Assembly (NCBI GenBank): GCA_938084195.1 | Contig: CALKDJ010000176.1 | Coordinates: 1-11,605, forward strand | Reading direction: 5' to 3' | DNA from: an uncultured Methylophilaceae bacterium | GTDB lineage: Bacteria > Pseudomonadota > Gammaproteobacteria > Burkholderiales > Methylophilaceae | DNA: 11,605 bases | In this document: one piece after another, positions 177 through 10,559 of the stretch | Position numbering within the stretch: position 1 is the stretch's first letter | How the letters are laid out: each line of letters opens with the position of its first letter | Translations under genes and position numbers: made by a program | The notes under the pieces: generated by a model | The model's database searches: none | The model's input: only the letters and a program-made list of their open reading frames with translations | What the model was told of the DNA's origin: nothing

Positions 177-533
177 ATGACATTTATATTAATAAAACTA
201 TTCGCTACTGCTGCTGTAATTGTTTTAATTTCTGAAATTGCAAAAATTTCGGACAAGCTTGGCGCCCTAATTGCCTCATTACCACTCATTACCTTTTTAA
301 CTCTAATCTGGTTATATGTGGAGAAGCAGGATCAAGAAAAAATTGCTAATCATGCTTATTATACTTTTTGGTACGTTCTTCCCACATTACCAATGTTTTT
401 ATTATTTCCTTTTTTATTGAAAAATCTTGGGTTCTGGTTTGCTTTAATTTTATCAATACTATTTACCATAGCTCTCTTCCTAATTTATGCTCAATTGCTT
501 AAAAGGTTTGGCATCCACCTAACTTCTTTTTGA
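177..533 (+). CDS. DUF3147-like four-helix integral membrane protein (first tandem copy)
   Basis: This is a 118-residue, almost wholly hydrophobic protein with four predicted membrane helices, at roughly residues 3-20, 28-47, 63-83 and 86-108. The short conserved pattern near the N-terminus (LISEIAK, then GALIASLPL) and the WLYVE segment after helix 2 match what I know of the DUF3147 family, whose members are about 115-120 residues and have no established function. No strong Shine-Dalgarno sequence precedes the ATG. It is followed after 30 bases by a paralogue in the same reading frame, separated only by this gene's TGA and ten sense codons. The family name comes from recalled consensus, not a search. 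Confidence 0.75.
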   Translation: MTFILIKLFATAAVIVLISEIAKISDKLGALIASLPLITFLTLIWLYVEKQDQEKIANHAYYTFWYVLPTLPMFLLFPFLLKNLGFWFALILSILFTIALFLIYAQLLKRFGIHLTSF

Positions 534-563: not shown

Positions 564-905
564 ATGACTTATCTAATAAAAATTATCATTGCAGTGAGTA
601 TCATTGTTTTAGCATCTGAATTAAGCAAAAGAAGTACTACGCTTGCTTCGATTTTACTAGCTATGCCAATAGTCCTTTTTGCATCATTTACTATTATTTG
701 GGAAGAAACTAAAAATGCTCAAAAAATTGCAGATATAACTTATGAGACGGTTCTATTCATTCTCCCAGTAATACCTTTTTTATTTTTATTAAGCTGGATG
801 CTTAAAAATAATATTAATTACTATGTTGCTCTCTCCGTTGCGTGTGTCGGTATCGCTATAGCAACTATTATTGTTCAAAAATTATTTTTTAATATTAATC
901 TTTAA
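564..905 (+). CDS. DUF3147-like four-helix integral membrane protein (second tandem copy)
   Basis: This 113-residue protein is a diverged paralogue of the gene just upstream. Both open with MT, keep a helix-1 segment of the form IVL-(I/A)-SE(L/I)-(A/S)K, share the LAS-LPL / LAS-AMP region and a short charged loop followed by KIA, and have four membrane helices in the same places. The function of the family is unknown. The start ATG has only a weak upstream GAAGT. Its 3' end overlaps the convergent blh gene by 11 bases (895-905), so the two transcripts meet tail to tail with no room for a terminator between them. The pair probably arose by tandem duplication. Confidence 0.72.
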   Translation: MTYLIKIIIAVSIIVLASELSKRSTTLASILLAMPIVLFASFTIIWEETKNAQKIADITYETVLFILPVIPFLFLLSWMLKNNINYYVALSVACVGIAIATIIVQKLFFNINL

Positions 906-1785
906 TTACTTTTATAATCCTTGGTAACAACATATGTGCATTAGTTAAACAAGCTAATATTGGAAATAATATTAGCAGTTCATTGCTAGTGTAACTATTA
1001 CCCGTAACGAAAATAAAAATAATAACCGGGCTGGTAAAAATTAACATCCAAATCAAATCAGGATACCACTTAAAATTAAGTTGAATAATTGCCCGTATGC
1101 CATGCAAGATACAGAAATAAACTGCAAACCATATTATTGGATCAAGTATATAGGCTATTGCCACTAAGAATAGTAATTCTAAAAGTAACAATACCTCAGA
1201 TAATTTATTAATATTTTTAAAAATTTGGCGAACTGCAATAAATATATAAATTAAAAATGCTACTGCCAATAAGCTTGAGATTACCAGAAACGTTGTTGTA
1301 TTTAGAGAGCTCTTGGTAAGTAAATAAAAAATTTCATTCACTCTTTCTTGATGAAAGCCTAAGGGTAAAAATGTCATTAGGAATCCCCAACTTGTCTTTT
1401 GAATTTGACTAACTGTACCTAAAAATTTAAGGTCAGACGATCCAAAATGAAATATAGATAATATAAGTAAAAGAGTTAGCCCAGCAAATGGTGCAATCAT
1501 CCAAAGCAAACCTCCAGCACTAACAATAAGTAAATAAGAAAAATAAATTTTTACCCTATTACTAAAGTTAGATCCTTGTTCCCATATAATTTTTCCATCC
1601 AATGCCCCGTGACTAACCCCTAATGTCATAATAAAAATAAAAGATAAAAAAATAATTGCGTTCTGTTCCACGAAATTAGTAAATTGAAATAACTTAAATA
1701 TTTGCGTATCTGTATAAAAAATATACTCAAGCATAAAAAACATCAAACATATAATAATTAATTGGTGCTTATTATATTTAGACAT
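895..1785 (-). CDS. blh: Beta-carotene 15,15'-dioxygenase, Brp/Blh family
   Basis: Blh is an integral membrane, iron-dependent enzyme that cleaves beta-carotene centrally into two retinals. The 296-residue product is highly hydrophobic, with about seven membrane segments. It carries the family signatures GVSHGALDG (His59) and FHFGSSD (His113), and YFCILHGIRA (His228). In characterised Blh four histidines bind iron. The fourth is expected four residues after the third (HxxxH), but here that position is Ala232 (codon at 1090-1092), so one ligand appears to be missing. The gene is last in the crtE-I-B-Y-blh order. Its ATG lies inside the 3' end of crtY (8-base overlap), suggesting translational coupling. 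Family identity is secure; full activity is uncertain because of the Ala232 substitution. Confidence 0.9.
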   Translation of the reverse strand: MSKYNKHQLIIICLMFFMLEYIFYTDTQIFKLFQFTNFVEQNAIIFLSFIFIMTLGVSHGALDGKIIWEQGSNFSNRVKIYFSYLLIVSAGGLLWMIAPFAGLTLLLILSIFHFGSSDLKFLGTVSQIQKTSWGFLMTFLPLGFHQERVNEIFYLLTKSSLNTTTFLVISSLLAVAFLIYIFIAVRQIFKNINKLSEVLLLLELLFLVAIAYILDPIIWFAVYFCILHGIRAIIQLNFKWYPDLIWMLIFTSPVIIFIFVTGNSYTSNELLILFPILACLTNAHMLLPRIIKVIKD

Positions 1786-2908
1786 TATTTTTTTGCATTC
1801 CTTTAATCATAAGAATTTTTGGCATACTCCATAACACCTTAATCAAATCCAATATTGATGGTTTATCAGATAAAAATCTTATAAGCGAGGGCATATTTAC
1901 GCGACTAAATAATTGCATAAAAAGATAGGGGCCTTGATCAGGATAAAAATATATCACTTTTAAAAAAATAGAATCTAACCAATTAAGAAACTTATCTTGT
2001 TTATATTGATAATATTTATGATTAGCTTCATTGAGCTTTACAATATTTATATTGAGAATCCATGAAGCAATTCTTCTCATAGAATAACCTGAAGATGGTC
2101 TTACCATCCCTGCATTAGTTCCTATTCTTCATGCAGCATTTTCTGTTTTATCTTTCATAATAGCCATAGGTATTATGGCTTTTTCAGATCTAAGTATTTT
2201 ATAGTCTTTATATGCCCTTAATAATTTTTTATGCTTTCTTGCGATACTATTTAAGTTAGGATTTTTTGAAAAAACAGTGGTCTCAATTAATGCTTTTTTA
2301 GATGAAAAGGGAAGAATATAAGTAAACTCTACCTCTTCTGAATTATCTTTAAAAGACATTATTGTTGCCTGATCGGAGGAAAAAGTATCTTTTGGCACAT
2401 CAATCTCATGCCCCACAAATGCCTGTTTAACATGGACTGAGGTTACGTCTAAATCTTTATCATTATTTCTACTATCAACTACATATTGTCCCTGAAATAA
2501 TTTATTTTTGCAGAATACATTAAATACATCATGTTTCTTTTCAATTTTATCCACCAATATATTTCTCTTTATTTCAACTTGATTAGCATGCTCTTTTATT
2601 AATCGCTTAAATGTTTCATATCCGTCAAAACAAACATACTGATAAGGACTGATTGTTCTAGAAATATTTTTGTCTTGATTTTGAATTAATATTTTATTCC
2701 AAGTTTTTTTGGGCTGTAAATTAAAGTTTTTTTGAATACTATCAAGTCCTGGTCCTTCCCATACACAAAAAGTTTGATCTTTTTTTATACTTTTTTTAGA
2801 TTCAAGAATTAAAACAGAATGTTTTTTAAATTTTTTTAGGTAACGATTCAGAAACATTAAGCTTGATAAACCTGCTCCAATAACTACTAAGTCATATTTT
2901 TTATTCAT
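1778..2908 (-). pseudogene. crtY: Lycopene beta-cyclase CrtY, interrupted by one in-frame TGA
   Basis: CrtY converts lycopene to beta-carotene with a bound FAD. The N-terminal part (2129-2908, 259 residues) has the dinucleotide-binding start VVIGAGLSS (residues 8-16) and FCVWEGPG near residue 50. After TGA 2129-2131 the same frame continues as RIGTNAG, then MVRPSSGYS and IRFLSDKPS, the usual C-terminal cyclase motifs, ending at TAA 1778-1780. Read through, it would have 376 positions, close to the normal 370-390. No bases are gained or lost: 2908 minus 2107 is 801, divisible by three. The break falls just before the conserved GMVRPSSGY motif, so the shorter product should be inactive. The gene overlaps crtB by ATGA at its start and blh by 8 bases at its end. 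It may be a recent nonsense mutation, a sequencing error, or a split product with restart at ATG 2107. Confidence 0.85.
2129..2131 (-). other. Premature TGA stop inside crtY
   Basis: The codon following ENAA in the cyclase frame is TGA, and the next codons resume conserved family sequence (RIGTNAG then GMVRP). A single substitution from CGA or AGA (Arg), TGG (Trp) or GGA (Gly) would produce it. The next base is A. An ATG restart codon lies 21 bases downstream at 2105-2107 with an AGGAA upstream of it. Neighbouring crtB, crtI and crtE all end in TGA inside ATGA overlaps, so TGA is read as stop in this genome. Confidence 0.9.
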
Positions 2909-3795
2909 TTATTGTGTGAGTCAGGAAGTTTTCTTATGGAATCATGTAGTAAATGATTGTGAATTTTAGTAGCGTTAATATTGTTTCTCCGTAAGACAAT
3001 CTGCATTGAAATTAAACTTTTTTCTAACTTATTTAAATAGATACGGCCATTTAAATATGTTTTTTTACTCTTTATCATTTTTTTTCCAATTGCTTGATAA
3101 AGTTGTGCAGCTATTTTTAAAGATCGTGCCGTTTTCTTTGGCAAATGCTCTATACCTTGATATCCACTTTCATAGTATAAATCTGCCCTATTGAGTAAGC
3201 GATCTCTCGCTTGATTGATATCAATTAATTGCTGCTTTGTTGGACTTAAAATATTCTCTGTTGTAAGGCCTCTTATTATATTTATTGGTAAATATATTCT
3301 TCCCCTTTCAGCATCTTCTTTTATATCACGACATATATTAGTGAGTTGCATAGCTATCCCAAGATCAATAGCAAAATACTTTAATTTTTTATCTTTTATC
3401 TCCATTGAATCACAAACCATTAAACCCACAACCCCAGCTACCCTATAACAATATATAAGTAACTCCTTTATATTTTTTGGTTGATGATGATTAAGGTCAC
3501 TTGCTTGGCCTTTTAAGAACTCTTTAATAATCTCCTCTCTGGGGAGATAATTGCGTGGAATACCTTTAAATTCTTGAAAGGCACGGTGATATTCATTATT
3601 TTCCCAAGCATTAATAACATCATAAAAATTCTTACTAAGCTCTACTTCGTCATTACTTTCATCAACTAGATCATCAATTCGACGGCAAAATGCATAAATT
3701 GCATAGAGCCTGTTAGAAACTTCTCTTTCAAGAAACCATGATGCCCAAAAAAAGGTTTTACCATGTGTTCTCATAACTTGCGATTGATTACTCAT
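2905..3795 (-). CDS. crtB: Phytoene synthase CrtB
   Basis: CrtB joins two geranylgeranyl diphosphates head to head to make phytoene, the first committed carotenoid step. The 296-residue product has both aspartate-rich magnesium-binding motifs of the squalene/phytoene synthase family: FCRRIDDLVDE, with Asp41, Asp42 and Asp45, and CRDIKEDAERGRIYLP, with Asp157 and Asp161. The MxLTNICRDI helix is also typical. Length is normal and I see no disruption. Its ATG overlaps the crtI stop as ATGA (3792-3795), and its own TGA overlaps the crtY start in the same way (2905-2908), which implies coupled translation. It should act at the inner face of the membrane beside CrtI. Confidence 0.97.
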   Translation of the reverse strand: MSNQSQVMRTHGKTFFWASWFLEREVSNRLYAIYAFCRRIDDLVDESNDEVELSKNFYDVINAWENNEYHRAFQEFKGIPRNYLPREEIIKEFLKGQASDLNHHQPKNIKELLIYCYRVAGVVGLMVCDSMEIKDKKLKYFAIDLGIAMQLTNICRDIKEDAERGRIYLPINIIRGLTTENILSPTKQQLIDINQARDRLLNRADLYYESGYQGIEHLPKKTARSLKIAAQLYQAIGKKMIKSKKTYLNGRIYLNKLEKSLISMQIVLRRNNINATKIHNHLLHDSIRKLPDSHNK

Positions 3796-5258
3796 GAATA
3801 AATTAGTTTCTCCACAACTTTTGCAGAGTTAATTACCCCTGGAACTCCCGCACCTGGGTGGGTACCTGCGCCCACATAAAATAAATTGCTATATTTATCA
3901 TCCTGATTATGCGTTCTAAACCAGGCAGATTGGGCAAGAATAGGGGCTATTGAAAATCCACTACCATAAGGCGTTCTATAATTTCTTTTAAAATCCAAAG
4001 GTGTCATACAGAATATATCTCGAGCATTGCTCTGGATATTAGGCATGATTGTTTTTCCTAAAGCCGCCAATATTTCATTTGAAAAGTCTTCCTTAATTTC
4101 ATTCCAGTTTTGATTTCCTTTTAGATTGGGTACTGGAACTAATGCATAATAACTATCATGACCTTTAGGAGCAAAAGAAGTATCTGTACAAGTTGGTCGA
4201 TGAAGATAGATAGAAAAATCTTTAGCTAAATGGTGATTATCAAAAATATCTTCTAATAATTCTTTATATCTAGGGCCCATCCATATAGTGTGGTGAGCTA
4301 CATCCTTATAACTCTTTCTAGATCCAAAAAAAAGAACAAATAATCCCATAGAATGTTTTGCAAATTTAGCAATCAACTGATTATGAAATGATATCTTGTT
4401 ACCTTTCATCAGTTCTTTTGAGACTTGTATAGGATCTGCATTACTAATTACATAATCAAATGACTCTTCTGCACCATTTTCAAATAAAACTTTTGAAATT
4501 TTATTTCCCTGCGTAAAAAGGCTTTTAACATCATGATTATATTTAATTGTAATTGAATGCCTTAACATCAATTTTTCTAGTTCTTTTACTAACTTTCCAG
4601 TTCCACCCATACAAAAATAAATTCCCCATTTCTGCTCTAATGCGTGAATTAAGGAATAAATAGATGAAGTAGTAAAAGGATTACCCCCAACAAGTAATGG
4701 TTGGATTGAAAATGCTTGCCTAAGATTTGGATGTTTAAGATGTTTTGATACAAAACTAAAAACAGATTGGTACCCCTTCATTTTAAGGATATCTGGAGCA
4801 TAACGAATCATTGTATTTATTTTGTTAAATGGATGCCCTGCAAGTTTTACATAACCTAATTCAAAAATTTTTTCCGCTTCTTTTAACATTGCTAGATATC
4901 CAGCAACATCTTCTGGTGAAATATCATTAATTTGATCTAACATCTTTTCTCTATTGGGACCATAATCAAACTGACTTTGGTCATGGAAATTAAATCTGTA
5001 CCAAGGGTCTAAGGATTTAAATTCTAGATAATCCTCTAAATTCTCTCCTAATAATTCAAATAGCTCATAAAATAAATTAGGGGCTGTAATTACAGTTGGG
5101 CCTGCATCGTGAATATAATTATTCTTTTTAAAAACCTGTGCTCTTCCCCCTAAAGATTCTAATCTTTCATAAAGCACAACATCGTTGCCTCGAGCTCTCA
5201 TTCTAATTGCTGATGCTATGCCTCCAAAGCCACCTCCTATAATACCTACTCTATTCAT
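3792..5258 (-). CDS. crtI: Phytoene desaturase CrtI
   Basis: CrtI is an FAD-dependent, membrane-associated desaturase that introduces the four double bonds turning phytoene into lycopene. The 488-residue product starts with the Rossmann motif GIIGGGFGG (residues 5-13), with Glu31 as the ribose-binding acid and GGRA at 37-40. It then has the family's HDAGPTVIT (50-58). The C-terminus has the carotenoid-dehydrogenase signature GAGTHPGAGVPG (about 463-474). Length is normal for bacterial CrtI. The start overlaps the crtE stop as ATGA (5255-5258) and the stop overlaps the crtB start. The number of desaturations cannot be read from sequence alone, but the crtY/blh context predicts lycopene as product. 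Confidence 0.97.
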   Translation of the reverse strand: MNRVGIIGGGFGGIASAIRMRARGNDVVLYERLESLGGRAQVFKKNNYIHDAGPTVITAPNLFYELFELLGENLEDYLEFKSLDPWYRFNFHDQSQFDYGPNREKMLDQINDISPEDVAGYLAMLKEAEKIFELGYVKLAGHPFNKINTMIRYAPDILKMKGYQSVFSFVSKHLKHPNLRQAFSIQPLLVGGNPFTTSSIYSLIHALEQKWGIYFCMGGTGKLVKELEKLMLRHSITIKYNHDVKSLFTQGNKISKVLFENGAEESFDYVISNADPIQVSKELMKGNKISFHNQLIAKFAKHSMGLFVLFFGSRKSYKDVAHHTIWMGPRYKELLEDIFDNHHLAKDFSIYLHRPTCTDTSFAPKGHDSYYALVPVPNLKGNQNWNEIKEDFSNEILAALGKTIMPNIQSNARDIFCMTPLDFKRNYRTPYGSGFSIAPILAQSAWFRTHNQDDKYSNLFYVGAGTHPGAGVPGVINSAKVVEKLIYS

Positions 5259-6211
5259 ATTATTTTAATTCTCATAAGCATTTCATTCTTTAATGACTCT
5301 AATATCGGTCTGATAATAATTGGTAAACGATGCATAATTTTTTCTGCTTCATTTAAAGTATTTTTTATTTCTTTTATACAATTCAAGTAATGTTTTTTTT
5401 CAATTAATTTGATAAGCTTGCTTGGATTTTTTTTTATTCGACTGTTAATATCCTCTGATTGTTCATTTAAAACATTTATTACAATAATATTTGGATGACC
5501 TTTCGTTAAGTCTGTGTAAGCTTCTTGTTCTTTTCCATATAAATTCTCCATATCGTTTAAACATTGATATGCATATCCAAATTCTTTAGATATTTCTTCT
5601 AAAGCATCACACTCTAAATCTGATAGCTCGTTACAACGAAACATACCCATCATAGGCATAGATATTAGTGGAGATGTTTTTTCAATTGCTATATCCTTAT
5701 ATTGCTCTTTATTTATTGTTAAATGTTCGTAACTGACATCTAGCGATTGACCAAAAACAATAGCCTTAACCGAATTTGATAATAACTTTAATAATATATT
5801 CTGATGCCACCCTTGCTCAATTTCAGTAAGCTTTCTAAAAGATTCTGCTATTAAATAATCACCAGAACATATTGCTGCAGGCACACCGAATTCTTTCCAT
5901 ACTGCAGTTTTTCCTCGTCGCATTGTATCTTGATCACAAATATCATCATGCAATAAAGATGCACTATGAATCAGCTCACACACAATCGCCCATTTAGTAA
6001 CTGTTTGATATGAAAGTCCCAACAATCCACCTGTTGCCAATGCTAATCTAGCTCTAATCCATTTGCCTTTAGTCTCATTATGATGTTTTAGCCATCCAGA
6101 TAAAAACTTATCCTTAACCTCAAAGCTTTGAGCAAATTCTTCCTTAACCTCAACTAAAAATTGATCTGCTTCAGGGGGCATAGCATATTTATTCCAATAA
6201 TCTTTATCCAT
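5255..6211 (-). CDS. crtE: Geranylgeranyl diphosphate synthase CrtE (polyprenyl synthetase), with a degenerate second Asp motif
   Basis: CrtE extends farnesyl diphosphate to geranylgeranyl diphosphate, the substrate of CrtB. The 318-residue protein has the first aspartate-rich motif LLHDDICDQDTMRRG (Asp89, Asp90, Asp93; Arg98-Arg99), the GQ pair at 154-155, and a KTSPL helix at 178-182. The second aspartate-rich motif, normally DDxxD after YQ, reads YQCLNDMENL, giving Asn219-Asp220-Met-Glu-Asn223. Only one of the three acids is kept as Asp. The N-terminal GKRxRP box is also changed to GKWIRAR. The ATG has no clear Shine-Dalgarno sequence. The gene follows the lysine-less rhodopsin by 59 bases and overlaps crtI by 4. 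Operon position makes a GGPP role likely, although chain length and activity remain inferred. Confidence 0.9.
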   Translation of the reverse strand: MDKDYWNKYAMPPEADQFLVEVKEEFAQSFEVKDKFLSGWLKHHNETKGKWIRARLALATGGLLGLSYQTVTKWAIVCELIHSASLLHDDICDQDTMRRGKTAVWKEFGVPAAICSGDYLIAESFRKLTEIEQGWHQNILLKLLSNSVKAIVFGQSLDVSYEHLTINKEQYKDIAIEKTSPLISMPMMGMFRCNELSDLECDALEEISKEFGYAYQCLNDMENLYGKEQEAYTDLTKGHPNIIVINVLNEQSEDINSRIKKNPSKLIKLIEKKHYLNCIKEIKNTLNEAEKIMHRLPIIIRPILESLKNEMLMRIKII

Positions 6212-6267: not shown

Positions 6268-6285
6268 GATTTAGGATCCTAAATC
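6268..6285. repeat. 18-bp perfect palindrome at the 3' end of the rhodopsin paralogue
   Basis: GATTTAGGATCCTAAATC is perfectly self-complementary and spans the last codons and the stop of the lysine-less rhodopsin. In RNA it can fold as a 7-bp stem with a GAUC loop, but only a short T run follows on the minus strand. It may therefore be a weak terminator, a 3' stability hairpin or an operator. Confidence 0.5.
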
Positions 6286-7008
6286 TGATTTGCGTTGGGC
6301 AATTAAATAAATCATTACTCCAAATACAGCAATTGAAATCAAATCGGCAACTGTATAGCCAATCTGAACATGAACAGCTGAGGTGTTTAAATAGAAAATC
6401 GGGAATAGATAAATGATGGGATAGATGGTCCAAGAAAATATAAGAAGCCATCTCGCATTACTTATTAATTTCTGAACATTTTTTGGTTGTTTAGATATTG
6501 CAGTTTTCAGTGCTATGACCAAATTATAAAGAATATATAAGAAAGGAATCATCGCCATAAGCCAGTAAATCATTCTTTCACCTAACTGATTTGGGTCCAC
6601 CAATGTTTCACCAGGGTAACCTAGGACAACCATTATCACTGCTGCTATAGTTAATTTTGTTCCTTTTGAATAGGTCTCCTCTTTATTAAGTCGCATTACC
6701 AGAATCAACTCCAACAGTAGTAATGGAACAGTTAAGAACCATCCAACATAACGATATGACACATTAAAAGGAATTCCTGTTTCTGTAATAAGATCAAAGG
6801 AAATTAAATATGCATCATTAAAACTATTAAATAATCTTAAGTAATGATAAAAAGCTATTAAACATACTAATCCAGATAGGGTGAGAGCAGTTTTATAGGC
6901 TGGAGCAACTTGTGACCTTTGGGCAAAGAAAAAAACGGTACTTGCACCAAACGCAGCAATAGCAAAAGATAAGAAATTATAAATTAAATTATAGCTTGCT
7001 AATTCCAT
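6271..7008 (-). CDS. Xanthorhodopsin-like microbial rhodopsin paralogue lacking the Schiff-base lysine and counterion
   Basis: This 245-residue seven-helix protein is clearly a type-1 rhodopsin. Helix C reads YRYVGWFLTVPLLLLEL, helix F has WTIYP (Trp193, Tyr196, Pro197), and GYPGE precedes helix E. Two essential residues are gone. Helix G reads VADLISIAVFG, where pumps have ADFVNKIAFG, so the retinal-binding lysine is Ile226 (codon 6331-6333). The proton-acceptor aspartate of helix C is Gly89 (codon 6742-6744). Retained are His55, Arg86, Thr93, Glu100 and Asp222. Each loss needs two base changes and the frame is intact, so this is not a sequencing slip. It cannot form a normal retinal Schiff base. 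It has an AAAGGG ribosome site, follows the proteorhodopsin after 97 bases and heads the crt operon. Noncovalent retinal or carotenoid binding, or partnership with the pump, is inference. Confidence 0.93.
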   Translation of the reverse strand: MELASYNLIYNFLSFAIAAFGASTVFFFAQRSQVAPAYKTALTLSGLVCLIAFYHYLRLFNSFNDAYLISFDLITETGIPFNVSYRYVGWFLTVPLLLLELILVMRLNKEETYSKGTKLTIAAVIMVVLGYPGETLVDPNQLGERMIYWLMAMIPFLYILYNLVIALKTAISKQPKNVQKLISNARWLLIFSWTIYPIIYLFPIFYLNTSAVHVQIGYTVADLISIAVFGVMIYLIAQRKSDLGS

Positions 7009-7030
7009 GTCATCCCTTTAAATTTTAATT

Positions 7031-7058
7031 AAAAAAAAACGCGCCATAAATGACGCGT
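7031..7058 (-). terminator. Intrinsic terminator/attenuator between proteorhodopsin and the rhodopsin-crt operon
   Basis: On the minus strand ACGCGTC and GGCGCGT (7039-7058) form a 7-bp stem with one G-U pair around ATTTAT, followed directly by a run of about nine T. The G-U pair becomes a C-A mismatch on the plus strand, so the element is oriented for minus-strand transcripts. Only about 22 bases separate the end of the T run from the next ATG, which leaves no room for a separate promoter after it. Downstream genes must therefore depend on readthrough or on a promoter inside the proteorhodopsin gene. Confidence 0.8.
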
Positions 7059-7105: not shown

Positions 7106-7789
7106 TTATTTTGATCCTGAAGTAGCTGCTGCCCAAATTACAACACCAAAGGCAATTTTGTTAACAAAATCAGCTAAGTTATAAACAAGGTTTAAGTTTG
7201 CAGCGCCATCTCCGCCTGCACCAAGTACATAACCGATAGGGTATATAGCCCATCCAACAGTCACAATAAGTCGTAATGCATTAAAGGCCTTCTTACTTGC
7301 TGCTGTACCTTTACTTGCACTAATTTGACTTGCTTCACCGGCGAATACTTCATAGATAATATATATCCAACCCGCCATCCCTATAATAAAACCAGCCCAA
7401 TAACCTATTGTTCCGACTTCACCAAGGTAACCACCAACTAGCATCACAATGGATGCTACTAAAAGTCTCCAGAATACAGAAACAGCTACAACTGCAATAG
7501 CTGCAAGTATCAAATAAAATTCGACAATTTGTAGTGGTACTGTTAATAACCAATCGACATATCTAAATACAGTTGGTGAATCTCCTGTATCAATCCATAC
7601 GCCTCTCATGTAGAAATAATGGATCGCTGCAATACCAGTAACCATAGCAGCTACTGTTAATGAAGTTTTCCATTTACCTACCGCTCTATCTCTTTCAACC
7701 CAGAAAAAAAACGTTGCTGCCACCATTGCCGCTGAAATAATCCAAAAGCTCATTCCAACGAAATCTGACGGATCTAATGCTCCACTCAT
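7106..7789 (-). CDS. Blue-absorbing proteorhodopsin, outward proton pump
   Basis: This 227-residue seven-helix protein is a light-driven proton pump of the inner membrane. Helix C reads FRYVDWLLTVPLQIVEF, with the pump triad Asp79 (acceptor), Thr83 and Glu90 (donor). Helix G has NLADFVNKIAFG with Asp207 and the retinal lysine Lys211. His57 in helix B and WAIYP in helix F are also present. The spectral-tuning position (105 in green proteorhodopsin) is Gln87, the blue-absorbing form. No signal peptide is present, because an in-frame TAG lies just upstream of the start. The start is fixed by a perfect AGGAGG (7795-7800) five bases before the ATG. A palindrome-rich promoter precedes it and a terminator follows. 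It depends on retinal from the downstream cassette or from outside. Confidence 0.98.
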   Translation of the reverse strand: MSGALDPSDFVGMSFWIISAAMVAATFFFWVERDRAVGKWKTSLTVAAMVTGIAAIHYFYMRGVWIDTGDSPTVFRYVDWLLTVPLQIVEFYLILAAIAVVAVSVFWRLLVASIVMLVGGYLGEVGTIGYWAGFIIGMAGWIYIIYEVFAGEASQISASKGTAASKKAFNALRLIVTVGWAIYPIGYVLGAGGDGAANLNLVYNLADFVNKIAFGVVIWAAATSGSK

Positions 7790-7919: not shown

Positions 7920-8162
7920 TTAATTTTTTTTGGGTGAATAAATCTGAAAAATTATCCAAATAAAGACGATTCCAGCTGAAGCATTTGATAATGATATTTG
8001 TTTTACTATATTAATTATTTGTTGCAGCACATTAAAAGAACCAATAAATGGGATATTTGTTTGACCAAGTAGAATTTCTACTAGTAAAATTAAAATAATT
8101 AAAATAACCAATGTCTCGGTAATGTTATTAGCCCATTTTTTTAAATGTTTTAATGTATTCAA
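7920..8162 (-). CDS. Small two-helix membrane protein, paralogue of the next gene (80 aa, TTG start)
   Basis: I do not recognise the family. The 80-residue product has a basic amphipathic start (KHLKKWANN), a long hydrophobic helix at about residues 17-34, the turn GQTNIPFIG, and a second hydrophobic segment at about 60-75 ending in charged SPKKN. It is a diverged copy of the gene at 8236-8472. The shared skeleton is L-x(4)-KWA, then ETxV, VEIL/LEIL, PF-x-G and a Trp near the end of helix 2. The start is TTG at 8162. This is supported by AGGGA upstream and because it aligns the first residue exactly with the paralogue's ATG. The gene lies after a strong terminator and 130 bases before proteorhodopsin, so its own promoter is unclear. 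Confidence 0.7.
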   Translation of the reverse strand: MNTLKHLKKWANNITETLVILIILILLVEILLGQTNIPFIGSFNVLQQIINIVKQISLSNASAGIVFIWIIFQIYSPKKN

Positions 8163-8235: not shown

Positions 8236-8472
8236 CTACTTTCTAGATTTCCAAATTGAATACAGAACCCAAACTGCAACCAGTCCAACAATCCCTTGAC
8301 TACCAAGATTGTTAATAAGTCCAGTTACGGTTCCAATTACGTCTGGTGTTCCAAAAAATGGAACAGCTTGGCCGCCCATTAAAATTTCTAGAACAATTGA
8401 TAATGCTAAAAGACTAACAACTGTTTCTGAAAGTCCACCAGCCCACTTTCTTACTGTAGCTAATACATCCAT
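8236..8472 (-). CDS. Small two-helix membrane protein of unknown function (78 aa)
   Basis: The product starts MDVLATVRKWAGG, then a helix at about residues 15-33 ending LEILMGG, the turn QAVPFFGTP, a Gly/Asn-rich amphipathic stretch (GLINNLGSQG), and a second helix ending in WVLYSIWKSRK. I do not recognise a named family. The ATG has a good AGGAG ribosome site seven bases upstream. The gene is monocistronic: a strong terminator follows within about 50 bases, and a 180-base upstream region carries three 16-bp-spaced repeats. A dedicated promoter region, strong terminator and good ribosome site suggest an abundant small protein. The diverged copy downstream and adjacency to proteorhodopsin hint at a shared membrane role, which is inference only. 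Confidence 0.8.
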   Translation of the reverse strand: MDVLATVRKWAGGLSETVVSLLALSIVLEILMGGQAVPFFGTPDVIGTVTGLINNLGSQGIVGLVAVWVLYSIWKSRK

Positions 8473-8810: not shown

Positions 8811-10559
8811 TTACTCTAGAAGTTTTCCACTTAAATCATTTATTTCTTCAGTATTTTTAATAGCACTAATTTGTTCATCAGACATGTTTTCTAACTTTTT
8901 TTCTGATAGTCTTAAGTTGCCATTAGAATCCATATCTACTTTAATATTCAAATTAAATCTATTTTCGATTTCCTCAAAATCTGTTCTTTGATGAGCGCCT
9001 CTGCTCTCTTGTCTCTTAGCAGCACTTAAAAATGTTGCAGACGCAGAAATAATTGACCCTTCTAAATCAAATGCTAACATTAAATCTTCGAATCCCTCTG
9101 AACTAGGCCTTACATCAAGATCAAATAATGATTTTTTTAGGTCATCTATTTTTTCTAAACCTTTTTTCAATCCTGAGCTATCCCGAACAACGCCACAATA
9201 TTCCCACATAATATTCCTAAGTTCCCTTTGAAGTGGACGTGCCATTTGTGAACCAGATTTTATAAATGAATTTATCTTATCGTGAGCTAGCTTAATAGAT
9301 TCTTTAGAACGATATTGAACGTCTATATTTTTTGATCTCTCTGATGCACTTCGACCAGCGCGACGTCCGAATATTAATATTTCTGCCAAAGAATTACCAC
9401 CTAATCTATTGGCTCCATGTAGGCCCCCTGCTACTTCTCCTGCAGCATATAATCCTTCTATATTTGTTTTGTGAGTATCTGAATCAACGATAACTCCACC
9501 CATCGAATAATGAGCTGTTGGGGACACTTCCATTGGTTTTTTTGAAATATCTATCATTAATGTGTCTAAAAATTGTCTATATATTCTTGGAAGTTTTTCG
9601 ATTATCAAATCTTTCGATTTATGACTTATGTCCAAATAAACCCCATTATTTGGAGTTCCTCTTCCCTCTATAATCTCAGTATAATTGGCCATCGCTACTT
9701 TATCCCGCGTGGAAAGTTCCATACGTTCAGGATCATAATTCTCCATAAAACGCTCACCATTTCCATTAATCAATCTTCCACCTTCACCTCGGACTGCCTC
9801 TGTTACAAGTGTGCCTGCCATTTCTTCAGGGATTACCATTCCAGTGGGATGAAATTGGACTAATTCCATATCTTGTAAACTACATCCTGCTTTTAATGAT
9901 AAATAAAAGCCATCACCAGTATTTTCATTTCTTCTAGAGGAACTCTTTCTCCAAATTCTAGTATGACCACCAGCTGCAAGAATTACCGAATCAGCTAAAA
10001 AAACAGTTCTTTCTCCCGTTTTTATATCAAAGGCCATTACTCCAAAACAGATTTCTTTATGAACAAGAAGCTCGGTAACGTATTGAGAATCTAAAATAGG
10101 TATTTTTAAATCACTTACCTTCTTTATTAAAGCGTTTAATATAGAGCGCCCCGTATAATCACCCGAATAACATGTTCTTCTGTAGGTATGGGCTCCAAAA
10201 AATCGCTGATCTAATTTTCCATCAGAAAGTTTAGCAAAGTTTGCTCCCCATTCATCAATCTCACTTACTAATTCTGGGGACTCCTTTGCCATAATTTCAA
10301 CAGAGCGAGGGTCAGCTAATCCGTATCCTTCCAACATAGTATCTGCGAAATGTTGTTCCCAAGAATCTTGAGGATCCACATTTCCAAATGCTGCATTAAT
10401 TCCACCAGCAGCTAAAACAGTATGAGCATCCTCTTTGAGTCTTTTCCCAAGCACAATTACATCGACCCCTTCTTTTTTAGCTTCAATAGCAGCCCTTAAT
10501 CCTGCTCCTCCAGTTCCTATTACTAATACATTTGATACGTGAGTATTATTTTTATTCAT
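8811..10559 (-). CDS. Succinate dehydrogenase/fumarate reductase-type flavoprotein subunit, stand-alone
   Basis: This 582-residue FAD-dependent oxidoreductase belongs to the SdhA/FrdA/NadB superfamily. It has the Rossmann motif VIGTGGAG (13-20), AHTVLAAGGI with His46 where SdhA and FrdA attach FAD covalently, FHPTGM (236-241), TEAVRGEGG with Arg257, TAHYSMGG with His350, and GANRLGG with Arg385. Together these form the dicarboxylate-binding active site. The C-terminal part has SRGAHQRTDFEE, as in SdhA. Aspartate oxidase lacks the FAD-linking His, so SdhA/FrdA type is favoured. No iron-sulfur or membrane-anchor subunit gene is visible on either side, so its electron acceptor is unknown; partners may lie elsewhere. 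The start has no clear Shine-Dalgarno sequence, and an inverted repeat lies upstream. Confidence 0.9.
   Translation of the reverse strand: MNKNNTHVSNVLVIGTGGAGLRAAIEAKKEGVDVIVLGKRLKEDAHTVLAAGGINAAFGNVDPQDSWEQHFADTMLEGYGLADPRSVEIMAKESPELVSEIDEWGANFAKLSDGKLDQRFFGAHTYRRTCYSGDYTGRSILNALIKKVSDLKIPILDSQYVTELLVHKEICFGVMAFDIKTGERTVFLADSVILAAGGHTRIWRKSSSRRNENTGDGFYLSLKAGCSLQDMELVQFHPTGMVIPEEMAGTLVTEAVRGEGGRLINGNGERFMENYDPERMELSTRDKVAMANYTEIIEGRGTPNNGVYLDISHKSKDLIIEKLPRIYRQFLDTLMIDISKKPMEVSPTAHYSMGGVIVDSDTHKTNIEGLYAAGEVAGGLHGANRLGGNSLAEILIFGRRAGRSASERSKNIDVQYRSKESIKLAHDKINSFIKSGSQMARPLQRELRNIMWEYCGVVRDSSGLKKGLEKIDDLKKSLFDLDVRPSSEGFEDLMLAFDLEGSIISASATFLSAAKRQESRGAHQRTDFEEIENRFNLNIKVDMDSNGNLRLSEKKLENMSDEQISAIKNTEEINDLSGKLLE

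Follow-up and report, generated by a model that had tools for sequence, protein, structure and literature searches.

We have found that the window, i.e., the whole 11,605-nucleotide stretch of DNA analysed here, from a marine-type methylotroph (Methylophilaceae), encodes a xanthorhodopsin-type (XR-type) opsin with neither the retinal lysine nor the counterion aspartate, and that this opsin belongs to one conserved clade of such proteins in streamlined Methylophilaceae. The gene does not look like a decaying copy: its conserved pocket, the signs of low expression and its pairing with a pump suggest that it is kept as a helper. Lysine-less opsins of this kind are already in print as Rh-noK, and the window holds another member; what is added here is how they are conserved over the clade, which genomes have them, how terminators are arranged around them and to which codon-usage class they belong, as well as evidence that the opsin and its neighbouring pump have moved together.

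The opsin and its locus

The reading frame of the opsin lies at 6271–7008 on the minus strand and is complete, with an ATG start and 245 aa. It matches PF01036 (E 2.6e-32, above the gathering score), that is, the microbial (type-1) rhodopsins. None of the NCBIfam models names the opsin, Rfam gave no match, and no relative was confirmed in viral_contigs. The AlphaFold model has a pLDDT of 92.4 and a pTM of 0.88. The features of the locus, in the direction of reading, are as follows.

7106–7789, minus strand: proteorhodopsin; Lys, acceptor Asp and donor Glu present, Gln at the spectral tuning site (Pfam, alignment)
7039–7058, minus strand: hairpin resembling an intrinsic terminator, with a T run after it, separating the pump gene from Rh-noK (hairpin search)
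7009–7019, minus strand: purine-rich ribosome-binding stretch ahead of the Rh-noK start (read from the sequence)
6271–7008, minus strand: Rh-noK, 245-aa XR-type opsin without retinal lysine or counterion Asp (PF01036, alignment, AlphaFold model)
5255–6211, minus strand: crtE-like polyprenyl diphosphate synthase (PF00348; NCBIfam models all below their cut-offs)
3792–5258, minus strand: crtI-family phytoene desaturase (TIGR02734 above cut-off)
2905–3795, minus strand: crtB-like phytoene synthase (PF00494; NCBIfam models all below their cut-offs)
1778–2908, minus strand: crtY-type lycopene cyclase with one in-frame TGA at 2129–2131 (list of open reading frames, Pfam)
895–1785, minus strand: blh beta-carotene 15,15'-dioxygenase, retinal-forming (TIGR03753 above cut-off, PF15461)

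After Rh-noK the gene order is crtE, crtI, crtB, split crtY and blh. Rh-noK is the first gene of this crt unit, as a sequence-only reading of the window had said, and it sits behind the terminator-like hairpin. The descriptive part of that reading is borne out in other respects as well: its coordinates are right, the strand being minus, the frame is complete and preceded by a ribosome site, the residues H55, R86, G89, T93, E100, W193, Y196, D222 and I226 are all correct in the alignment, and the neighbouring proteorhodopsin is intact, with its Lys, Asp acceptor and Glu donor present. In place of the helix G lysine and the helix C aspartate acceptor, which a functional retinal-Schiff-base rhodopsin or proton pump has, the opsin carries Ile226 (codon 6331–6333) and Gly89 in the position of the counterion aspartate (codon 6742–6744). 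It follows from the sequence that the usual retinal Schiff base and pump-like proton pumping should be impossible for Rh-noK.

Rh-noK has been described from marine betaproteobacteria, in tandem with proteorhodopsin (PMC10308929 and PMC7714340, both in excerpt, citing Yamauchi 2019, doi 10.1111/php.13114). By description the two are alike: the window opsin is XR-related, lysine-less, in tandem with proteorhodopsin and betaproteobacterial, and the marine protein is likewise XR-related, without the lysine, and found with proteorhodopsin and retinal genes. According to PMC10308929, a betaproteobacterial Rh-noK with the lysine restored showed retinal binding and pumping, so the cavity of this protein can take retinal. 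The same paper describes flotillin-associated rhodopsins, which are also second rhodopsins of streamlined aquatic bacteria, most of the freshwater ones being lysine-less, but they are of the proteorhodopsin family with flotillin adjacent, whereas the window opsin is XR-type and stands beside crt genes; its neighbours are proteorhodopsin and crtE, with no flotillin gene adjoining. Unlike the window opsin, the proteins with solved structures, i.e., Kin4B8, Gloeobacter rhodopsin, xanthorhodopsin and psXR, are light-driven pumps with the retinal lysine.

The TGA at 2129–2131 splits crtY into open reading frames of 2129–2908 and 1778–2107. Since full-length, near-identical metagenomic copies of crtY exist, it should be a strain-level mutation or a sequence error; if real, it would stop retinal synthesis. 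In another Rh-noK locus (L041, genome G029), tblastn finds crtI, crtY and blh each in several pieces and matches crtB only in part, and stops interrupt the glmS of this genome; both rhodopsins are intact. These breaks are probably indel-type assembly errors.

Distribution and conservation of the lysine-less clade

We have searched 5.8 billion proteins for homologues and considered the best 120 of 931 passing matches. These include at least 33 full-length 90% clusters without the lysine (P0001–P0033), with at least 1401 member sequences as judged from their representatives, together with some shorter pieces. Among the lysine-less matches listed, only P0007 bears an organism name, that of a Methylophilaceae bacterium, and P0001, which stands for a 90% cluster of 198 sequences, is itself 98% identical to the window opsin and has the same residues. 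Lysine-bearing xanthorhodopsins appear among the matches listed from 66% identity downward. No other lysine-less group was noticed among the best 120 of 3818 profile-search matches, whose new entries (P0121–P0133) were left out of the residue check; as only this best portion was listed, other such groups may exist.

Residues were counted in an alignment of 46 lysine-less rows (window included) and 45 lysine-bearing rows, drawn from the fetched loci and from those of P0001–P0065 that exceed 235 aa. Both sets leave out P0066–P0133, identical rows and shorter proteins, and the lysine-bearing counts also leave out L004. At position 226, the lysine-less rows have Ile in 44/46 and Leu in 2/46; at position 89, they have Gly in 40/46 and Ser in 6/46, and Asp in none. 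Since P0001 carries the same residues and every one of the 46 rows has G/S at 89 and I/L at 226, the two replacements in the window are unlikely to be a sequencing accident. Among the short proteins excluded from the counts, P0040 (231 aa) is aberrant past helix F with Gln at 226, and P0036 and P0059 end before this position. One lysine-bearing row, P0046, has Tyr at 89. We have also considered a displaced lysine that could substitute for the lost one, and rejected it: within the hand-set membrane cores of the 46 rows, lysines occur only at 165/166 (15 rows), which we take as the cytoplasmic end of helix E.

The lysine-less rows form one clade with an ultrafast bootstrap of 88, read after re-rooting. 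With columns 89, 100, 148, 225 and 226 removed they are still one clade (label 95, quick tree), with one change of state. This apparently indicates that the double loss of lysine and aspartate was a single event and was kept afterwards.

At the genome level, we have scanned 187 genomes belonging to one Methylophilaceae family, that of G001 (the MAG that holds locus L001), and found a rhodopsin match in 55 of them. Rh-noK is present in 13 of the 187, and all 13 also have proteorhodopsin, which stands immediately upstream of Rh-noK in 12; in G011 both genes lie at contig ends. Another 12 of the 187 have a lysine-bearing xanthorhodopsin with no second rhodopsin match and no Rh-noK (the XR-only genomes, 6/12 of whose loci are on contigs of 1.27–1.35 Mb). 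A further 13, called Methylopumilus-type for their resemblance to the named P0085, combine a xanthorhodopsin match with a second match, which in G089 is a 40-residue piece only; nine of their loci were read, eight are intact, and all eight intact ones keep the lysine. The remaining rhodopsin genomes are G007, with a fragment, and 16 with other matches only. The pairing of Rh-noK with proteorhodopsin does not amount to 13 independent events: the genomes are related and represent few lineages, the eight with a usable glmS forming one group and the window standing apart from it.

The relatives without the loss can be compared with a published case. The XR-like rhodopsin of Ca. Methylopumilus/OM43 (PMC6794327, in excerpt) is of the same family at ~56–68% identity, precedes crtE and has Trp at the carotenoid site, but unlike the window opsin it keeps Lys and Asp; in XR-only genomes no other rhodopsin was found beside it, and its gene precedes the terminator.

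Could Rh-noK simply be a decaying xanthorhodopsin, redundant beside proteorhodopsin? In a one-ratio codon model, ω is 0.096 for 14 Rh-noK genes, compared with 0.044 for 12 OM43-type and 0.072 for 8 Methylopumilus-type lysine-bearing xanthorhodopsins, 0.057 for 14 proteorhodopsins of the Rh-noK genomes and 0.061 for 8 Methylopumilus-type proteorhodopsins, all rough values because synonymous sites are probably saturated. The Rh-noK value is about twice that of the OM43-type set, as decay would predict, and such decay does happen: at ~5198–5895 of L062 (G088), three stops have left a Methylopumilus-type xanthorhodopsin in two pieces, while the proteorhodopsin next to it is intact. On the other hand, the ω of Rh-noK is far below 1, the gene is free of internal stops in all 13 genomes, and the pocket is nearly invariant over the 46 rows. 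Relatives with both Lys and Asp were found only outside the lysine-less clade, the nearest at 66–68% identity among the matches listed. We therefore regard decay as strongly disfavoured and very improbable. The earlier proposal that the joint loss reflects selection is in this way sustained by clade-wide conservation, purifying selection and unbroken frames, and its expectations of conserved replacements at 89 and 226 and of a dN/dS away from 1 agree with what was found.

We have further compared the pocket with the rest of the membrane part. Pocket positions were mapped via the bacteriorhodopsin numbering of the retinal pocket, with 89 and 226 left out and helix limits set by hand; Y56, which corresponds to Y57 of bacteriorhodopsin, was counted in the pocket entropy and left out of the site rates. 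In the lysine-less rows, mean entropy is 0.079 in the pocket and 0.600 at other membrane positions (0.158 and 0.694 in the lysine-bearing rows), and the median site rate is 0.1 against 0.369 (p 2e-5). Of the membrane positions conserved in lysine-bearing rows, 17/18 in the pocket and 51/66 elsewhere are kept, a difference that is not significant (Fisher p 0.089). It speaks against a ligand role that these pocket sites also make up the helical core and are no less conserved in lysine-bearing rows. The proton donor E100, kept in the window, is Gln in 17/46 lysine-less rows, and Y56 is His in 18/46, while neither position changes in the 45 lysine-bearing rows. That is, in these alignments the pump residues are relaxed while the retinal-pocket residues are almost invariant, with W90, W193 and Y196 present in 46/46.

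A pocket of this kind differs from that of the haloarchaeal opsin-related proteins (Becker 2016, PMC4915679, in excerpt), type-1 opsins that also have no retinal lysine but have lost pocket aromatics (W76D and Y174L), which the window clade retains in all 46 rows. For this comparison, W90 and Y196 of the window opsin are taken to correspond to the haloarchaeal W76 and Y174.

For carotenoids, the critical position is W149, aligned with the fenestration glycine of xanthorhodopsin (XR position 156). The mapping was checked on Kin4B8, which has Gly there, and the lysine-less rows have Trp in 46/46; PMC6794327 names the glycine site and notes Trp for Methylopumilus. Binding of a carotenoid antenna of the xanthorhodopsin kind is judged unlikely on this ground, and the carotenoid-carrier option of the sequence-only reading finds no support as far as an antenna role is concerned.

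Terminator placement, codon usage and locus history

In the window, the hairpin with its T run between proteorhodopsin and Rh-noK reads ACGCGTCATTTATGGCGCGT (7058–7039). A lone hairpin means little, since 3 terminators were found in a 2.8-kb stretch of the window against 1.5 expected from shuffling; the evidence is recurrence at one place. All 13 one-contig loci (the window and 12 others) have a hairpin with a similar stem at the same place. Downstream of Rh-noK, a hairpin over the same fixed threshold occurs within 110 bases in only 1/14 (L043), and L045 and L046 show, by eye, weaker hairpins ahead of T runs. The pump gene is, on this reading of the DNA, before the terminator, whereas the second opsin shares the far side with the crt enzymes. 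In 12/12 XR-only loci, a hairpin of this sort (ACGCGYC stem) occurs downstream of the lysine-bearing xanthorhodopsin and ahead of crtE, and a hairpin of different sequence lies between proteorhodopsin and xanthorhodopsin in 8/8 Methylopumilus-type loci. Similar CGCGYC hairpins are found after xanthorhodopsin in L050–L059, L072 and L073 and after proteorhodopsin in the Rh-noK loci L036–L048, as if the pump gene had been exchanged in front of one fixed terminator.

Codon usage points the same way. We have trained one score on 12 XR-only loci (xanthorhodopsin against crt genes) and a second one independently on 7 loci of Methylopumilus type (proteorhodopsin against crt genes); L040 and L041 were left out of both. 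With the first, over 12 Rh-noK loci, window included, proteorhodopsin averages 0.036, Rh-noK −0.050 and the crt genes −0.057 to −0.086 (11 loci for crtY and blh). With the second, the averages are −0.008, −0.114 and −0.134 to −0.197, respectively, and the OM43-type lysine-bearing xanthorhodopsin scores 0.020. By the first score, Rh-noK falls below its own proteorhodopsin in 11/12 loci, L045 being practically equal, and is higher in L048; the gap in the window is modest (−0.003 against −0.069). Rh-noK codon usage is, by these scores, like that of the crt enzymes and not of the pumps. Taken together, terminator and codon usage make Rh-noK look like a low-abundance protein, as far as DNA can tell.

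The lysine-bearing second rhodopsin of the Methylopumilus-type loci (L060–L068) likewise follows a terminator and uses codons much as the crt genes do, and so it too may be an accessory made in small amounts and not another main pump. It follows that the slot of a second rhodopsin needs no loss of the lysine. The first rhodopsins differ too: at the tuning site, proteorhodopsin has Gln in 14/14 proteins of Rh-noK genomes and Leu in 9/9 Methylopumilus-type loci read, Gln being the blue-absorbing residue.

The flanks of the window are those of XR-only loci: glmS is common to the window and 10/12 of them (in L072 the last 20 residues only), and small2 and, beyond blh, duf_b are common to it and 12/12 (small2 and duf_b are gene labels of this analysis). 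Such flanks were not seen in the other 13 Rh-noK loci within the fetched stretches. In the glmS tree (24 rows, leaving out G011, G017, G021, G028 and G029, where the gene is a fragment, broken or absent), the window groups with the XR-only genomes G005, G001 and G002 with support 98, while the eight fetched Rh-noK genomes stand together elsewhere. For glmS, a topology uniting all nine Rh-noK rows in one clade is rejected (AU p 0.009, run after the tree was seen). The window opsin, unlike its glmS, lies inside the lysine-less clade. The simplest account is that a proteorhodopsin–Rh-noK unit, probably with the crt genes, replaced a lone xanthorhodopsin at the window locus, so that the pair would have travelled together. 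This account rests on glmS, the flanking genes and the opsin tree, since crt support is weak: the crtI branch joining the window to the Rh-noK loci has 74, the crtB branches around the window have 44–74, and G005, G001 and G002 are close to the window in both trees. The proteorhodopsin tree allows no conclusion, because with the XR-only loci included xanthorhodopsins were pulled in. The broken L062 was left out of the trees.

Two features of the flank deserve mention in their own right. Tandem, similar-looking small membrane proteins of 80 and 78 aa are encoded on the minus strand at 7920–8162 and 8236–8472; neither matches an NCBIfam model, and the 78-aa one also has no Pfam match, is 97% identical to its L055 counterpart and stands beside the rhodopsin locus in 12/12 XR-only loci. 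Between them and glmS, a succinate dehydrogenase/fumarate reductase-type flavoprotein of 582 aa lies at 8811–10559 (minus strand), with no recognised partner subunits in the window; the gene was not found in the other fetched loci.

A proposed role in retinal handling

His87 of Gloeobacter rhodopsin lies opposite Ser46 of the adjacent protomer, and its Asn43 and Asn114 pair across protomers; XR-type proteins have a B–C loop with beta strands and an aromatic stack, both absent from proteorhodopsins (PMC6677831, in excerpt). The equivalents H55, S14 and N11 are present in 46/46 lysine-less rows and N82 is Asn in 39/46; of the three aromatics, the third being GR Y106, the two that were mapped, at 6 and 63, are kept in 46/46, and the B–C loop of the Rh-noK model contains beta strands. 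Since the aspartate partner of H55 is gone, its retention suggests a function in packing. Sequence and model together seem to favour homo-oligomers over mixed pentamers with proteorhodopsin.

Mixed oligomers in which Rh-noK is a subunit that tunes pumping, a proposal attributed to Yamauchi 2019 in PMC10308929, would explain the tandem genes, the co-occurrence in 13/13 genomes and the invariance of N11, S14 and, despite its lost Asp partner, H55. We consider them unlikely, because the terminator in 13/13 loci and the crt-like codons predict less Rh-noK than pump, and because the interfaces may mismatch: the Rh-noK model has the B–C strands, and proteorhodopsins are without this loop and the aromatic stack (PMC6677831, in excerpt). 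The earlier suggestion of an assembly partner of the pump becomes doubtful in its stoichiometric form, given terminator, codon usage and different pentamer types; an assembly aid is retained among the proposed roles.

A membrane role independent of light and retinal seems quite unlikely, whether Rh-noK were to scramble lipids, act as a scaffold or keep a fatty acid where retinal used to be. Two papers make it conceivable: a bacterial opsin scrambles lipids independent of chromophore and light (PMC12805836), and decanoate has been seen in the pocket of a retinal-free proteorhodopsin (PMC11322631). According to the same papers, scrambling needs no particular residues, which leaves the conserved pocket and the link to proteorhodopsin and crt genes unexplained, and the carboxylate of decanoate contacts the lysine that Rh-noK is missing. 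Least probable among the roles considered is that of a sensor for retinal or retinal precursors, through which Rh-noK would control either the crt cassette or the pump via some partner. Its place as first gene of the crt unit and its conserved pocket would fit a sensor, but the Pfam scan and the AlphaFold model show no effector domain in the 245-aa protein, and no regulator was recognised among the scanned open reading frames of the window (177–533 left out of the scan).

The account we prefer, tentatively, is that Rh-noK non-covalently binds retinal, or some neutral apolar compound related to it, and is a low-copy retinal-handling accessory for the pump, probably as its own homo-oligomer. Conservation indicates that the retinal-shaped cavity and the pentamer-contact residues have been kept. 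The old pocket would bind retinal or a similar apolar ligand without a Schiff base; as the loss of Lys and Asp should leave Arg86–Asp222 as a neutral pair, an uncharged ligand would fit better than a protonated Schiff base. Expression, judging from terminator and codon usage, would be low and come from the crt/blh unit behind the terminator, and Rh-noK would buffer or carry retinal, or aid assembly, for proteorhodopsin. A narrower version of retinal handling, rather unlikely as it stands, is a dedicated non-photochemical carrier, which would have given up the Schiff base for reversible binding and, made at enzyme-like levels with crtEIBY–blh, would pass retinal to the abundant proteorhodopsin. 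A carrier needs a ligand-release feature, and none was identified in Rh-noK. If true, this version would mean that a pump has given rise to a carrier of retinal inside bacterial cells.

Overall, pocket, terminator and codon usage make the idea of a regulator or partner predictive, namely of low copy number, reversible retinoid binding and no stoichiometric mixed pentamer. The relatives offer a natural comparison between a lone lysine-bearing opsin before crt genes and a lysine-less opsin behind proteorhodopsin. If the retinal-handling account is correct, Rh-noK would show how bacteria handle retinal, an insoluble and reactive aldehyde, between its synthesis and the pump.
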